A DNA stretch of 64,000 nt from Streptomyces sp. XD-27. GTDB taxonomy: Bacteria > Actinomycetota > Actinomycetes > Streptomycetales > Streptomycetaceae. The translations under genes were made by a program, and so were the position numbers. Location: contig NZ_CP130713.1 in the NCBI RefSeq assembly GCF_030553055.1, forward strand, positions 7,192,001 through 7,256,000, read 5' to 3'. Positions 41,183 through 46,971 of this stretch are shown here, in pieces. A model generated the notes under the pieces. That model was not told the origin of the DNA, searched no databases, and saw only the letters and a list, made by a program, of their open reading frames with translations. How positions within the stretch are numbered: position 1 is the stretch's first letter; each line of letters begins with the position of its first letter.

Positions 41183-41213
41183 TCTAGCCAGACCGGGCTT
41201 CGACGGAGGCTGT

Positions 41214-41280
41214 TGTGACTGAGCGCTTCAGGTGGCGGGTGAGCGGCCGAGTTGGCGGGGCTGAGCGTATGAGTTGGCGG
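41214..41280 (+). repeat. Left end, block 1: three tandem TnsB-site-like repeats
   Basis: After TGTGAC come three about 20-22-bp direct repeats beginning at 41220, 41241 and 41262: TGAGCGCTTCAGGTGGCGGG, TGAGCGGCCGAGTTGGCGG(GGC) and TGAGCGTATGAGTTGGCGGG. Tandem about 22-bp sites at the left end are the signature of TnsB-bound Tn7-like termini. Confidence 0.8.
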
Positions 41281-41364
41281 GCAGGGTAGCGGGCAGCTCG
41301 CTCACCTGCGGCGCTTCATGGAAGGTGGCACGCAGACCCGTACGGTCCGGCTGTCCTGAAGGGT

Positions 41365-42132
41365 ATGGAGATCTCGGTCCGTACACCGGCCGTCGAGCCC
41401 CGGGCGATGTGGTCGCATAGCTGCACCCTGGATGATCTCGTCACGCCGTACGCCGTCGACCCGACGGTGGTCGCACGGCTGGAGGCGGGGCCGGGATGGG
41501 CTCGTCGGTGGACGGCGGTGTGGAGGGCGTCCCGGGCGCGGGTGGTCTGCCCGGTCCCGGACCTGGCTGACTTCCCCACGCTCGCCTCGGCACCGGTGCG
41601 GAGCTTCACCTGGCAGGCTCGACAGCGGCACCGCCCGGGGCTGCAGTTTGTGCTGGCAACGAGCCGGATGCACGGCTTCGAGAGCTTGGAAGAGCGCCGC
41701 CTGCTGCTGGCCTTGGACTTCACGGGCGGTATTGAGGAGGTGCTGTCCCAGCCGTTCAAGCTCAGGTTCACCGCCATCGGCGGAGGCGAGGACCACACCC
41801 CGGACTTCCTGGTGCTGCTGAACGGGACGGCGGTGCTGATCGATGTCCGCCCCGGTCATCGGGTCAAGGACAAGGACTTGGTGAAGTTCGCCGCGGCTGA
41901 GCGGGCGGCTGCCTCGGCCGGGTGGCGCTACCTGGTGGTGACCGGCTGGCGCCGACATGTGGCAGCAGGGCTGGACGCGCTGTCGGCCCGGCGCCGACCG
42001 ATGGCCGACCGCCTGGGGCTGCACGATGAGCTGTTGGAGATGGTTGCCGAGCGTCCCCGGCGGTTCGGCGACCTGGTCGAGGCTACGTCGCTGCCCGCCG
42101 TCGCCCGCGCCCATGCCGTCCATCTGCTCTGA
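41365..42132 (+). CDS. TnsA-like transposase endonuclease
   Basis: 255 residues. The TnsA nuclease domain (about 100-185) shows FESLEERRLLLALDF (metal-binding Glu), EDHTPDFLVLL (Asp) and AVLIDVRPG, where the last catalytic Lys of classic TnsA (ExK) reads Arg; a DVRP motif is, to my knowledge, common in actinobacterial relatives. TnsA cuts the 5' ends of the transposon, giving cut-and-paste movement together with TnsB. ATG 41365 follows GAAGGG. It ends 75 bp before tnsB. It appears intact, unlike tnsB. Confidence 0.88.
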   Translation: MEISVRTPAVEPRAMWSHSCTLDDLVTPYAVDPTVVARLEAGPGWARRWTAVWRASRARVVCPVPDLADFPTLASAPVRSFTWQARQRHRPGLQFVLATSRMHGFESLEERRLLLALDFTGGIEEVLSQPFKLRFTAIGGGEDHTPDFLVLLNGTAVLIDVRPGHRVKDKDLVKFAAAERAAASAGWRYLVVTGWRRHVAAGLDALSARRRPMADRLGLHDELLEMVAERPRRFGDLVEATSLPAVARAHAVHLL

Positions 42133-42206
42133 CACCGGCGCATGGCGGTGGACCTGGCCCAGCCCCTGGGCGATGCCTCATGGATCTACCCGGTGGGGAG
42201 ACGGTG

Positions 42207-43840
42207 ATGGCCGAGGGGCGGCAGCGCTTGCGGAGCGAGGATCTGCCCGAACACGACCTGGTCCGGGCACGGATCCGGGCGGCACATCTGCTTGAGGTCC
42301 AGACCGGATTCCGCAGCGGCAGTCGGCACTGGGCCCAGCCGGGAGAGCCGCGGGGTGAGTACGACCCGGCACGCACCACGCTGGCCGAGCGGCGCCGGGC
42401 GAAGGTGGCTGAGCTGAAAGGGATGGACCGGCAGGGGGCCAAGCAGCTGGGACTGGAGTGGATCAGCGAGCGCACGCTGGAGCGGATGGCCGCCCAGTAC
42501 GCCGAGCACGGCCTGATGGGGCTAGCAGACGGGCGGTGGACGCCGCCGCTGCGGGGCCGACGAGCGGTTACCGAGGAGATCACCGAGGCGATCCGGGCCG
42601 TTCACGCCGAGTGCCTGCACCGCTCGAAGGTCAGCATGAAGACCAAAGAGCGGATGATCCACCAGTATGTGGCTGAGAAGTTCGGCACCGAGGTACACGT
42701 CCCGCATTACACGACGCCGGCGAAGATCTGGAAGGAGTGGTTCGGCCCCGAGGGCTCCCGGCAGCGCTACCTGCGCTCGGCCGCGGCGGTGGAGACGGGC
42801 AAGGCGAAAGTTGTGATCACCCGCCCCGGGCAGGTCGTCGCGCTGGATACCACCCCGCTGCCAGTGAAAGTCCTCGACGATGTGTTCGGCAGTCCGATGA
42901 CCGCCCACCTCACCCTGGCTCTCGATGCCTACTCACATTCCCTGGTCGCCTTCCGGCTCACGTCGGTGTCGGAGTCGTCGGTGGAGGTGGCGATGCTGCT
43001 GCGGGACGTGCTGCGGCCGTTGCCGATGCGCCCGGACTGAGGAGAGGAGATGGCCTGGACCTATCCCGGAGTGCCGGCCGCGCTGGTGGCGGAGTTCGCC
43101 GGACGCCCTGTGGCGGATCTGCCGTTTTTCGCCCCGGAAATGGTGACCAGCGACCACGGCAGCGTCTACAAGAACCACCACATCGTTGCCTCCGCTCGCC
43201 GACTCGGCATCGATCTACTGCCGGCCCGCGCCATGCGGCCAACCGACAAGGCCGCGGTCGAGCGCGCATTCGCCGGAATCCAGTCGCTGCTGCTGGAACT
43301 CCTGCTCGGCTACCGGGGCACCGACGTTGCCGACCGTGGCGCCGACCCGGAGGGCGATGCGGTCTGGACGGTTTCGCAAATGGAGCACCTGCTGGCCAGC
43401 TGGATCGTGACGGTGTGGCAAAACCGCAGGCTGGACCAGTACGCCCCAGCCTGGGACGCGGGCGGGCGACATAGCCCGAACACGCTGTTCGCTGCGGCGG
43501 CCGCCCGCGACGGGATCAGTTGGAGATCCCTGATCCGGAGTCGTACTTCGAGCTGCTGCCCGCTCACTTTGTGAAGATCGACGCCCGGCGCGGGGTGAAG
43601 ATCGGCGGACTTTGGTACGGCGGCACCGATCCCGTGCTCGATCCCTACCGGGGCCGGCGTTCGGGCCGCGGAGGACGGCACGCGGGCAAGTGGGCGATCC
43701 ACCGCGATCCGCGTGACTGCCGCCAGGTCTTCTTCGAAGACCCCGAGCAGCCGGGCTCCTGGCAGGCACTGGACTGGAATGGCCTGCCGCCCGGCGACGA
43801 TGTCCCGGCCGCCAGGAGGAACTGCAAGGCCAAGAGGTAG
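42207..43840 (+). pseudogene. TnsB-like DDE transposase: in-frame stop, frameshift and 3' truncation
   Basis: HTH and linker regions (about residues 1-190) precede an rve-type catalytic core: first Asp in VVALDTTPLPVKV, second Asp in VTSDHGSVYKN, Glu in TDKAAVERAFAGIQ. A TGA at 43038-43040 interrupts MRPD-GEEMAWTYPG in the same frame, a Trp codon being likely originally. A 1-base loss near 43,515 shifts the frame before LEIPDP-like sequence (PDPESYFELLPAHFVKIDARRGVKIGGLWY). The Mu-C-like domain stops being recognisable at about 43,815, where it abuts a gene on the other strand. The 3' end and any tnsC are lost. Start ATG 42207 follows GGGGAG. Confidence 0.87.
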
Positions 43841-44196
43841 GCGTTCCCGTCTGCATCTCCGCCGTAACGAGTGTGCAAGCGCTCCTTGTGGATGCTGGCG
43901 TGGGACACGTCGATGTCGAGATCGTTGATGACCGCGATCGCGTCCTCGTACACGGCGAAAAGCCCGGCGGGCAGCAGGGAGTCCCAGGGGCCTGTGCCAT
44001 TCCAGATCTCGTTTCCGTGAAGCTCGAAGTCGGCTGGCACCCTTTGCAGGTGCTTCCTCGCTACCTGGCAGAACTTCTCCGCGAGGGGCTGCACCTTGTC
44101 CTCATGCACGAGCACAGCGGCCAGCGTCAGCAGCTTCTGCTTGTTGGCACCCTTCCCGACGGAGCCCGTCTCGTCGATGTAAACCAGGTGTGCCAT
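43820..44196 (-). pseudogene. DUF3800 protein, 3' end truncated
   Basis: The frame from ATG 44196 gives MAHLVYIDETGSVGKGANKQKLLTLAAVLVHEDK, the DUF3800 signature (YIDESG-like acid site near residue 7), and continues to YEDAIAVINDLDIDVSHASIHKERLHTRYGGDADGNAYLLALQFLLAA. Near 43,820 it runs into antisense tnsB sequence and stops only at 43645. DUF3800 proteins are RNase H-like and common on mobile islands. Both this gene and tnsB lost their 3' ends at the same junction, so a deletion joined them tail to tail. Confidence 0.8.
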
Positions 44197-44265
44197 GCGT
44201 CGAGTAAAGCGGACCGAGGCTCCTGGTGGGTGGAGGCAAGTCCCCAAACAATGAAAACGGGCGGA

Positions 44266-44291
44266 CCCGCCACCTGAGGCGCTCAGTCACG
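44266..44291 (-). repeat. Outgoing end of block 1
   Basis: The reverse complement reads GTGACTGAGCGCCTCAG then GTGGCGGG, matching the left-end repeat with one change; the outermost T of TGTGAC is altered. The next five bases, GCGGT (44292-44296), differ by one base from the GCTGT at the left outer flank. Confidence 0.75.
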
Positions 44292-44298
44292 GCGGTGC

Positions 44299-44362
44299 TG
44301 TGACTGAGCGCTCTAGTTGGCCAGTGAGCATTGCACTGGGCCGTTGAGCGCGGAACTGTCCA
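44299..44362 (+). repeat. Inward end of block 2 with three diverged repeats
   Basis: TGTGACTGAGCGCTCTAG starts at 44299 and is followed by three about 19-20-bp units starting TGAGCGCTCTAG, TGAGCATTGCAC and TGAGCGCGGAAC, each ending in TGG/TGT-CC sequences. They are clearly more diverged than those of blocks 1 and 3. Confidence 0.7.
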
Positions 44363-44395
44363 GCGCAACTCGTGCTGCGTACCGGACGTGGCTGA

Positions 44396-44557
44396 CTCGG
44401 CGCGCTCGTCGCGATCGTCGTCTACTGGCTGGCACTCGTGCACGTCGCCGTCCGGCTGCGCGCGGTGCTCGGCCGACCGGCCTGGCGCCGACGCTGGGAG
44501 CGGATCGGCGGCTGGATGCTCATCGCCCTCGTGGGGGGAGTGGCCGCCACCGGGTGA
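44396..44557 (+). pseudogene. C-terminal fragment of a LysE-type exporter
   Basis: The last 53 codons of a membrane protein: LVAIVVYWLALVHVAVRLRAVLGRPAWRRRWERIGGWMLIALVGGVAATG and a TGA at 44555. The pattern of a hydrophobic segment, a basic RPxxRRRWERIGG loop and a terminal hydrophobic segment resembles LysE/RhtB exporters. Codons before 44396 are stopped and merge into the transposon end, so the gene was cut by insertion or deletion at that end. Confidence 0.55.
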
Positions 44558-44563
44558 CGCGCG

Positions 44564-45649
44564 CTAGGACCGTGTCGCCCTCGCGCACTCGTCCCCAGTG
44601 GACTCGCCCCGCCCGACCGGCGCGCTGCGGTCGTACGGGTCGACCTCCGTGCCGGCCTCGTCCGCCCGGCGGTCCGTGCCGAAGGGCGGGACGAAGTAGC
44701 CCGTGGGGGCGCCGCAGCCGCCGTTGGTCATGTCGTACTTGTACGAGACGATCGAGAACGTGCCCGGCTCGGTGATCACCTTGTCGGGGTCGTCCCAGCT
44801 CAGGACCAGCTCGCGCCGGACGATCGTGCGCACGATTTCGTCGTCGCCGCCCGCGTCCGCGCGGGTGACCGGGTAGACGAAGGTGACGTCGGCGGTCACC
44901 TGGAGCGCGCCGCGCTCGCCCTCCCGGTAGGCGAGCCGGCCCCGGGTCTTCACGACGTCGCCGACCAAGTGGGTGCGGGAGGGCTGGAAGCGGCTGAAGA
45001 GGAGGAGGGGGTCGTTCTTCTCGCTCGGAGATCGGAAAGCGGTTTTCAGAAGGTCTTGGACGTCCTTCTGGTGCGGGTTGATCAGTGCAATCGCCTTCTC
45101 GGGGCGCTCGCCCCGCAGCACGCCACGGTCCAGGCTGGACGCGACGAGGAAGTCCCGGCTGCTGGCCAGGGCCCGCTCGACCTCGGCCGCGCTCATCCAG
45201 CCGATCGCCCCGGCCTTCGGCACCGTGATCCCCGCCGCTCCGCTCGCCCAGCTCGCCGCTGGCGAGCCGCGGAACGGCTCGTCCATGGTGGGGCGCTGGG
45301 CCGCCTCCGCCGGGGGGACCTGGGTCGGGCGGGCCGCCGGCGGCGGGGAGTCAGCGTCGGCGAACAGGTCCACTATCCGCCCCGGCGCGAGCGCCACTAC
45401 CAGCAGCACCAGCGAGGCCAGCAGCCCGACCACGTACCAGCCCGTGCGCCGCTTGGGCCGCGCGGGCGTGTAGCTGCGCCAGCCCTCCAGGCCGTGACCG
45501 GGCTCCGCGCGCAGCCGCTTTGCCACCTCGCGGGCCCGCGCCGACGGCTCCTTGGGCGCGTCGGCGGCACCCGCCACCGACTCGCGAAGAAACCGCTCCC
45601 ACTCCTCGTCGGACCTGGACGAGCCGTCCGGCTCCGTACCCGCACCCAT
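44564..45649 (-). CDS. Membrane-anchored protein of unknown function
   Basis: 361 residues. A cytoplasmic N-terminal region (about 1-68, charged, SDEEWERFLRESV) is followed by one membrane segment (about 69-90, GWYVVGLLASLVLLVVALAPG) and an extracytoplasmic domain of about 270 residues, with FLVASSLDRGVL, SRFQPSRTHLVGDVVKTRGRL, TADVTFVYPVTR and a C-terminal GCGAPTGYFVPPF block. This resembles conserved Streptomyces lipid- or wall-facing proteins, but I cannot name a family. It is the only intact gene in block 2. Confidence 0.75.
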   Translation of the reverse strand: MGAGTEPDGSSRSDEEWERFLRESVAGAADAPKEPSARAREVAKRLRAEPGHGLEGWRSYTPARPKRRTGWYVVGLLASLVLLVVALAPGRIVDLFADADSPPPAARPTQVPPAEAAQRPTMDEPFRGSPAASWASGAAGITVPKAGAIGWMSAAEVERALASSRDFLVASSLDRGVLRGERPEKAIALINPHQKDVQDLLKTAFRSPSEKNDPLLLFSRFQPSRTHLVGDVVKTRGRLAYREGERGALQVTADVTFVYPVTRADAGGDDEIVRTIVRRELVLSWDDPDKVITEPGTFSIVSYKYDMTNGGCGAPTGYFVPPFGTDRRADEAGTEVDPYDRSAPVGRGESTGDECARATRS

Positions 45650-45773
45650 CCCCAACCCCTGGCAATCAGTAGTCCGCGGCCCATTCCCCTGGGACGCGTC
45701 CGCATGATGTTACAGAGCGCTGACAGTGAGGCCGGCTGGGCGGACGGTGTGGGCGCGCCGCCTTTTCTCAACC

Positions 45774-45797
45774 GGCCGACTGAAGCGCTCAGTCACA
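45774..45797 (-). repeat. Outgoing end of block 2
   Basis: The reverse complement is TGTGACTGAGCGCTTCAG followed by TCGGCC, identical to the block 1 left end over the first 17 bases. It is separated from the next inward end (45803) by exactly 5 bp, ACTGA. Confidence 0.8.
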
Positions 45798-45802
45798 ACT
45801 GA

Positions 45803-45868
45803 TGTGACTGAGCGCTTCACCTGGCGGCTGAGCGGCCGAGTCGGCGGATTGAGTACCAGCCAGTCTTC
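45803..45868 (+). repeat. Inward end of block 3 with tandem repeats
   Basis: TGTGACTGAGCGCTTCAC at 45803, then units TGAGCGCTTCACCTGGCGGC, TGAGCGGCCGAGTCGGCGGA and TGAGTACCAGCCAGTC. The first two are nearly identical to those of the block 1 left end, showing the same end type. Confidence 0.8.
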
Positions 45869-46099
45869 GCAGGTCAGGAGCGGAAAACAGCGATAGCCGC
45901 AGATGCGTACTGCGCCACCGGGCGGGCCTCCCTCGCCTCCGTGGGGATCCAGCAACAGCCCCGCCACTGTTCTCGGCCGCACCACTCCCTCCGCGTCCGT
46001 GGTGACACCGCCGTAGGTGAAGTCACCGTTGTGACAGACTCAAGATCACTTTTGACCACACGCCCAGCAGGGTGTTCTGACCAACAGAGTGGGGAACTC

Positions 46100-46600
46100 A
46101 TGACCAGGGTCCGGCTCAGCACCAGCCTTGGCGACATCGTGCTGGAACTCAACAGCGAGAAGGCGCCGAAGACCGTCGAGAACTTCCTGAACTATGTCGA
46201 CCGCGGCCACTACAACGGCACGATCTTCCACCGGGTGATCCCGGGCTTCATGATCCAGGGTGGCGGCTTCACCGCCGACATGGCGCAGAAGCCGGTCGAC
46301 GCCCCGATCGACAACGAGGCGAACAACGGCCTGGAGAACATCTGCGGCGCCGTGACCATGGCGCGGACGAACGACCCGCACTCGGCGACCGCGCAGTTCT
46401 TCATCAACACCGTCGACAACGATTTCCTGGACCACACGTCGCCGACGCCGCAGGGCTGGGGCTACGCGGTGTTCGGCCAGGTCATCGAGGGCATGAACGT
46501 CGTCGATGCAATCAGGGGTGTCGAGACGACTTCCAAGGGCTACCATCAGGACGTTCCGGTTGAGCCCGTGATCATCGAGCGCGCGGAGCGCGCGTCGTAA
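46100..46600 (+). CDS. Peptidyl-prolyl cis-trans isomerase, PpiB-type cyclophilin
   Basis: 166 residues. Cyclophilin catalytic blocks are present: [42 protein letters not shown] and [20 protein letters not shown]. Sequence and length are much closer to PpiB of proteobacteria (short, no insert) than to the usual longer actinobacterial cyclophilins. It catalyses proline isomerisation in the cytoplasm. ATG 46100 follows GGGGA. It is the only gene in block 3 of the Tn7-like array, so it is either cargo or captured host DNA. Confidence 0.93.
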
Positions 46601-46616
46601 GCCTTGAGTAGGTGAC

Positions 46617-46651
46617 ACGGCTCCCAGGTCCGAGAAGGTCCTGGGAGCCGT
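46617..46651 (+). terminator. Terminator of the cyclophilin gene
   Basis: ACGGCTCCCAGG (46617-46628) pairs perfectly with CCTGGGAGCCGT (46640-46651) around an 11-base loop, 17 bp after the stop, followed by TCGTCTGTG. A strong intrinsic-type hairpin. Confidence 0.8.
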
Positions 46652-46921
46652 TCGTCTGTGCCGCCGTCACTTATTGCTATGAGACCGTCCTACGCGCGCC
46701 GCGCGTCTCCCACGGAATCGGGCCACCGCTGGTGAGCTGGCCCGGCGCCGCAGGGCCGGCCGTCGGACCGCAGCGGTCGTACGGTCCGCTCATGGGCGTT
46801 GGAGGGCCACCGGTGCGCCTGATGTGGACGGTCGCTGGGCGAGGGATCGCCGCGGCGGAGGGCCTTCCGTCACACCGCCGCAGGTCAGAGGCGCGCAGAT
46901 TGAGCGCTTCAGTTGGCGAGC

Positions 46922-46947
46922 CCCGCCAGGTGCAGCGCTCAGTCACA
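46922..46947 (-). repeat. Outer right end of the Tn7-like array
   Basis: The reverse complement reads TGTGACTGAGCGCTGCAC then CTGGCGGGG. It is followed on the chromosome side by GCTGT (46948-46952). Just inside, an additional inverted copy TTGAGCGCTTCAGTTGGCGA lies at 46900-46919. Confidence 0.8.
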
Positions 46948-46971
46948 GCTGTGTGCCGGGCGCCTGGCTCA

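Follow-up and report, generated by a model that had tools for sequence, protein, structure and literature searches.

The 64,000-nt stretch of the Streptomyces sp. XD-27 genome analyzed here (the window) contains, at positions 41,214-46,947, an array of three blocks bounded by the ends of a Tn7-like transposon family. The array is probably a composite of three short non-autonomous elements that became neighbours through insertion at resident ends, after which the chain was moved once by its outermost ends. This reading draws on the flanks and spacers of the array and on related chains in other Streptomyces genomes, here designated by locus (L) and genome (G) numbers.

Ends in the window, facing in or out, were scored with a 17-mer end motif (≤3 mismatches), with 100 shuffles as controls. 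There are exactly six matches, at 41214 (in), 44291 (out), 44299 (in), 45797 (out), 45803 (in) and 46947 (out), with the positions and alternating orientations given in an earlier annotation of this DNA (the original prediction). Shuffled windows had a mean of 0.17 matches and a maximum of 2, none reaching 6. Nested insertion is ruled out by the order of the ends, for it predicts in-in-out-out. The ends delimit block 1, a decayed Tn7-like element (41214..44291, plus strand, 3078 bp), block 2 (44299..45797, plus strand, 1499 bp) and block 3 (45803..46947, plus strand, 1145 bp), and all are well preserved (scores 28-39). Across the family we distinguish direct-repeat (D) ends from inverted-copy (I) ends. 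The left ends of the window blocks carry the predicted direct repeats of about 20 bp: approximately three in block 1 (41214..41279, plus strand), where the second copy is visible by reading the sequence, and a second copy scored at +26 in blocks 2 and 3. At the right ends, block 3 has an inverted motif copy immediately inside (46931..46947, minus strand), and no second copy was scored in block 1 (CGTGACTGAGCGCCTCA, 44275..44291, minus strand) or block 2 (45781..45797, minus strand). Judged by these end repeats, the three blocks share one orientation and lie head to tail.

The flanks of these blocks point to movement of the chain as a unit. The pentanucleotide GCTGT stands at 41209..41213 and again at 46948..46952, and of the six in/out pairings that the window ends allow, only the outermost has identical 5-bp flanks. 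The spacer between blocks 2 and 3 is 5 bp (ACTGA, 45798..45802), again as predicted; blocks 1 and 2 are separated by 7 bp instead of 5 (GCGGTGC, 44292..44298). A single duplication encloses the chain, its members have none of their own, and a single Tn7-like transposition of the whole chain, already proposed in the original prediction, accounts for the outer target-site duplication (TSD). Identical outer 5-bp flanks occur at three of 13 multi-block spans (three of the nine loci having such spans), namely the window and, in two other species, L051 (flanks CCTCA, spacer GAACCGC) and L180 (S. inhibens; flanks CGCCC, spacer TACGG). In none of the three chains does a member block have its own TSD. 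We read them as unit-moved chains because their outer flanks repeat while spacers and member flanks do not. Three independent side-by-side insertions, whose own duplications eroded and whose outer flanks match by chance, would agree with the frequent loss of exact TSDs in the family (41 of 63 single-block pairs). Identity of 5-bp flanks between different loci, however, arises by chance in 14 of 3753 comparisons (0.4%), yet it is seen in three chains, and the ends in the window are well kept; we regard independent insertion as very improbable.

That these ends belong to transposons was examined by searching Streptomyces genomes with the 17-bp end, as had been suggested. The 17-mer (≤1 mismatch) is present in 95 of 295 genomes, the backwards control gave no matches, and a tns-linked copy was recovered. 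This copy, a 7.9-kb element with the same ends in S. hyaluromycini (L057, 5267-13191; TSD GCCAC), encodes TnsA (NF033179, 140 bits), a TnsB with a weak rve match, a TniB/AAA regulator of the TnsC type (PF05621/PF13401) and TniQ (PF06527, 64.7 bits). A defective second copy lies in tandem with it, 5 bp away. Because the same type of end bounds the L057 element, the end family is Tn7-like, in line with the original prediction. The family combines TnsA with TnsB, TnsC with TniQ, 5-bp TSDs with repeated end sites, and homing at a fixed distance; in one locus (L188:5529-8240) the TnsA and TnsB regions lie in one 903-aa open frame. Exact 5-bp TSDs, found at 22 of the 63 single-block pairs in fetched loci and at L057 in addition, identify the ends as those of transposons. 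The target logo of 26 TSD-bounded sites has no strong motif (largest column 0.18 bits).

If the 17-mer were instead an unrelated dispersed repeat and the blocks host DNA, its presence in 95 genomes and the occurrence of block 2 and block 3 gene relatives without ends would be expected. This explanation is hardly credible, being contradicted by the exact TSDs, the end repeats on both sides, the complete tns-bearing copy and the fixed distance to tpg described below; TSDs and tns linkage led us to reject it. Most of the copies delimited in the family are short and lack tns genes. The cargo of other blocks includes an S1-domain protein (L172:10533-12191), a SpoIIE-type phosphatase (L103:9347-10558), a pentapeptide-repeat protein (L180:7929-9665), a DUF4241 protein (L188:8511-9836) and a helicase resembling the PADLOC candidate PDC-S28 (L184:7626-10238). 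A rule placing the D end always on the tnsA side was dropped; the two are adjacent in the window and far apart in L076.

Back-to-back ends recur among the collected relatives. A scan of genome contigs for pairs of ends facing away from each other, with 0-14 bp between them, retrieved 34 stretches, of which 33 came from records named Streptomyces. In a metagenome-assembled genome labelled Candidatus Taylorbacteria (L149), the junction pattern matched but no end was scored. Scored ends form 41 back-to-back junctions across 34 of the 91 loci examined, loci that were picked for having ends or junctions, so that these counts are no estimate of prevalence. The spacer is most often 5 bp (14 junctions), followed by 4 bp (nine), and 35 of the 41 fall within 2-7 bp. 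L171, L172, L181 and L182 each contain a chain of at least three blocks. The array, which the original prediction had considered unusual, is a recurrent trait of the family and less unusual than supposed.

Seven of these loci (L171, L172, L175, L176, L187, L188 and L191) contain one chain member with its own exact TSD, and this member is therefore a newcomer beside a resident element. In L175 the duplicated sequence is TGTGA, the five bases with which the resident's own end begins. The sequence duplicated in L171 and L172, ACAGC, combines the final ACA of a resident end with GC, and in these two loci the newcomer is placed between two residents. The I end of the newcomer abuts the D end of the resident in L172, L175, L176 and L187, and the resident end is unclassified in L171.

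Some elements of the family home to fixed positions. When the proteins in 158 outer flanks (with duplicates) were clustered, 26 flanks fell into one large group and four into another. The large cluster corresponds to the tap-tpg telomere protein genes (NF047541, 262 bits; NF047542, 491 bits). At 21 selected sites, among them L051, L052, L056, L065, L067, L071, L082 and L091, the transposon end lies 29-35 bp (median 32) past the tpg stop codon. These distances exclude L059 (598 bp), L101 (159 bp), the far side of L067, three loci with tpg at kilobases (L085, L098 and L182) and the repeat fetches L023, L024, L041 and L274. The tpg-proximal end is D at 18 of the 21 sites, unclassified at two and scored I at one. 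Starting from tpg instead, which scored above cut-off in 60 of 91 genomes, we found an end in four of 30 fetched loci, one of them already known (L065); each lies 33-37 bp from the last codon, with none elsewhere in those loci. The 3' region of tpg is thus a candidate attTn7-like site. The small cluster is argC (TIGR01850), from three genomes after duplicate removal. Its sites (L076:10110, L050:1708 and L175:8359) are upstream of argC, with the D end proximal and 28-31 bp from a shared TGCATAAA.

The window array, in turn, lies upstream of a carbon-nitrogen hydrolase gene, 31 bp from its start. Its flank joined no cluster among the 158 outer flanks, and the site was unmatched by any other flank. 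No Tpg-family match was found in the window genome (G000), from which the usual attachment site seems to be absent. L051, also read as a unit-moved chain, sits at tpg.

Attachment sites of this kind raise the alternative that the chain grew in place, successive elements using one fixed-distance site without mutual target immunity, as is known for attTn7-type sites. The 21 selected sites after tpg and the three beside argC are consistent with such growth, as is L175, where the newcomer is the block nearer argC and went into the terminal TGTGA of the resident. Under repeated homing, however, the window should show spacers of the GCTGT type or TSDs around single members, and neither is present. 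A shared flank was found at no more than two of the 34 junction loci (L051 at tpg and L175 at argC); the flank of the window is unique, and the newcomers in L171 and L172 sit between two residents. In the window, L051 and L180, duplicated outer flanks enclosing differing inner spacers speak against it as a last step. We consider growth in place improbable.

Insertion at resident ends followed by movement of the whole chain would proceed in three steps. Elements would insert directly at a resident end or a few bases away from it, giving head-to-tail chains in which the spacer is the target duplication, usually of 5 bp. The newcomers in relatives document this step, and the window chain presumably formed in the same way. 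TnsA and TnsB supplied from elsewhere would then pair the left end of block 1 with the right end of block 3, treat all that lies between them as a single transposon and move the 5.7-kb chain to its present place, creating GCTGT and carrying ACTGA and GCGGTGC along as fossils, a step suggested by the flanks. Afterwards or before, the transposition genes would have decayed, leaving block 1 with tnsA and part of tnsB. Block 1 is indeed decayed, and each of blocks 2 and 3 is a cargo module with a single gene. Ends, TSDs, junctions, decay and the distances to tpg are observed directly. The order of events, the movement as a unit and any attraction of insertions by resident ends are what we infer from these arrangements.

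Several observations weigh against this scenario. Outer flanks are unmatched in ten of the 13 multi-block spans, and the binomial value for three matching spans (1.4e-5) is a guide only, overstating independence because spans are nested within loci. The 7-bp spacer between blocks 1 and 2 requires an offset target, and the orientation of insertion is not strict, as the D end of the newcomer abuts an I end in L188 and D abuts D in L191. The lack of an exact TSD in 41 of 63 single-block pairs would be due to decay or to mis-paired ends. Of the block 3 relatives, which occur in 27 other genomes, 19 loci were inspected and none had ends. Finally, the empty site with one GCTGT suggested by the original prediction, or a donor site, was not found when the left flank was compared with 286 genomes and the right flank with 392. 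Close matches to the left flank were confined to G181 and G102 (75-76%). The right flank matched eight other genomes of the 392 at E ≤ 1e-40, and the left-flank loci were unmatched by it. These searches retrieved related genes and no joined site.

The original prediction also raised the possibility that each block could be mobilized separately. For block 2 this is supported in part. Relatives (E ≤ 1e-40) occur in 85 of the 295 genomes, its own counted, and in G241, G058 and G294 the match reaches the right-end boundary, beyond which the DNA differs. In G241 the left boundary is also kept, 5 bp from the end of another element. In the 16 other fetched block 2 loci no end was scored (L231 has a degenerate end by eye). 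The shared boundary suggests that the partners of block 2 have changed as it moved. For block 3, with matches in 27 other genomes of the 295, the single-block cyclophilin copy with ends that had been proposed as a check was not encountered in the loci inspected.

Block 1 encodes a TnsA-like protein of 255 aa (41365..42132, plus strand; NF033179, 114 bits against a cut-off of 110; PF08722), followed by a tnsB remnant matching the L057 TnsB (42180..43840, plus strand) in pieces (42180-43040, 43050-43574 and 43520-43840). The remnant is interrupted by one in-frame TGA and by a frame change, and its last part is missing; of the 686 residues of the L057 protein it covers 1-446 and 446-543 and nothing beyond. 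No TnsC or TniQ match was found among the open reading frames (ORFs) scanned, and of the set tnsA, tnsB, tnsC and tniQ only tnsA is whole between the window ends. The array thus does not look like an autonomous Tn7-like element, and its blocks appear non-autonomous. Nor was a second match to an L057-type TnsB found elsewhere in the genome at E ≤ 1e-10; as the TnsB of block 1 is broken and truncated, no TnsA/TnsB in this genome can be pointed to as one that moves the blocks today. The modular interpretation of the original prediction is largely right, but the array recurs in the family and the window copy is probably no longer mobile by itself.

Block 2 carries a gene for a 363-aa protein (44564..45655, minus strand) that resembles the SCO2583 membrane-protein family at 102 bits, below the model cut-off of 205. 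Block 3 carries a gene for a cyclophilin-type peptidyl-prolyl isomerase of 166 aa (46100..46600, plus strand; PF00160). A minus-strand ORF at 43645-44247 seemed to resemble a DUF3800 fragment, but neither Pfam nor NCBIfam assigned it to a family. Elsewhere in the same genome, solitary ends of this family occur at L104:9611 and 10522 and at L105:10564, with no partners detected.

Like Tn7 and Tn7-like elements, the Streptomyces family has TnsA- and TnsB-like proteins, an AAA/TniB-type TnsC and TniQ, TGT...ACA ends with repeated sites, a 5-bp duplication and insertion some 30 bp beyond a conserved gene. It differs in that most of the copies seen are short tns-less blocks joined in head-to-tail chains, of which at least three seem to have been moved as units. 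Composite transposons, mobile insertion cassettes and transporter insertion sequences (ISs) also move passenger genes by ends without their own transposase. In those the cargo lies between two IS copies or one end pair, whereas the window holds three complete end-bounded blocks.

Among Tn7-like transposons the closest known system is a TnsB clade dominated by Actinobacteria, which is called experimentally uncharacterized by Benler et al. 2021 (PMC8649781). That paper also mentions elements landing internal or adjacent to existing ones, and one CRISPR-associated transposon (CAST) homes 30-33 nt past a tRNA gene (PMC10293859). Attachment at tpg or argC was not met in the parts of the Tn7-like literature covered. 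IS30 inserts beside its own inverted repeats (IRs) and into hot spots (PMC9333248); the likeness, new copies at resident ends and IR-IR junctions, is one of behaviour only, as IS30 moves by a copy-out route with a single transposase, makes 2-bp duplications and has unrelated proteins and ends. No prior description of the end family, the tpg attachment site or such arrays was found in the open-access literature, most subscription journals lying outside it.

Tn7 itself avoids inserting next to itself through target immunity (PMC11406308). A family whose ends attract or at least tolerate insertions would be the opposite, and such behaviour would account for the gathering and movement of non-autonomous modules that carry single host-like genes. 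More tentatively, and less likely than not, the family may be a gene-collecting system in which the multi-repeat end of a resident is the attachment site, single-gene blocks are added in fixed orientation and the chain leaves as a larger transposon. If so, it would amount to a cassette array built from Tn7-type ends instead of site-specific recombination. The tpg site, if confirmed, would be a defined integration site for Streptomyces and would link a family of transposons with the machinery that replicates linear chromosomes and plasmids.

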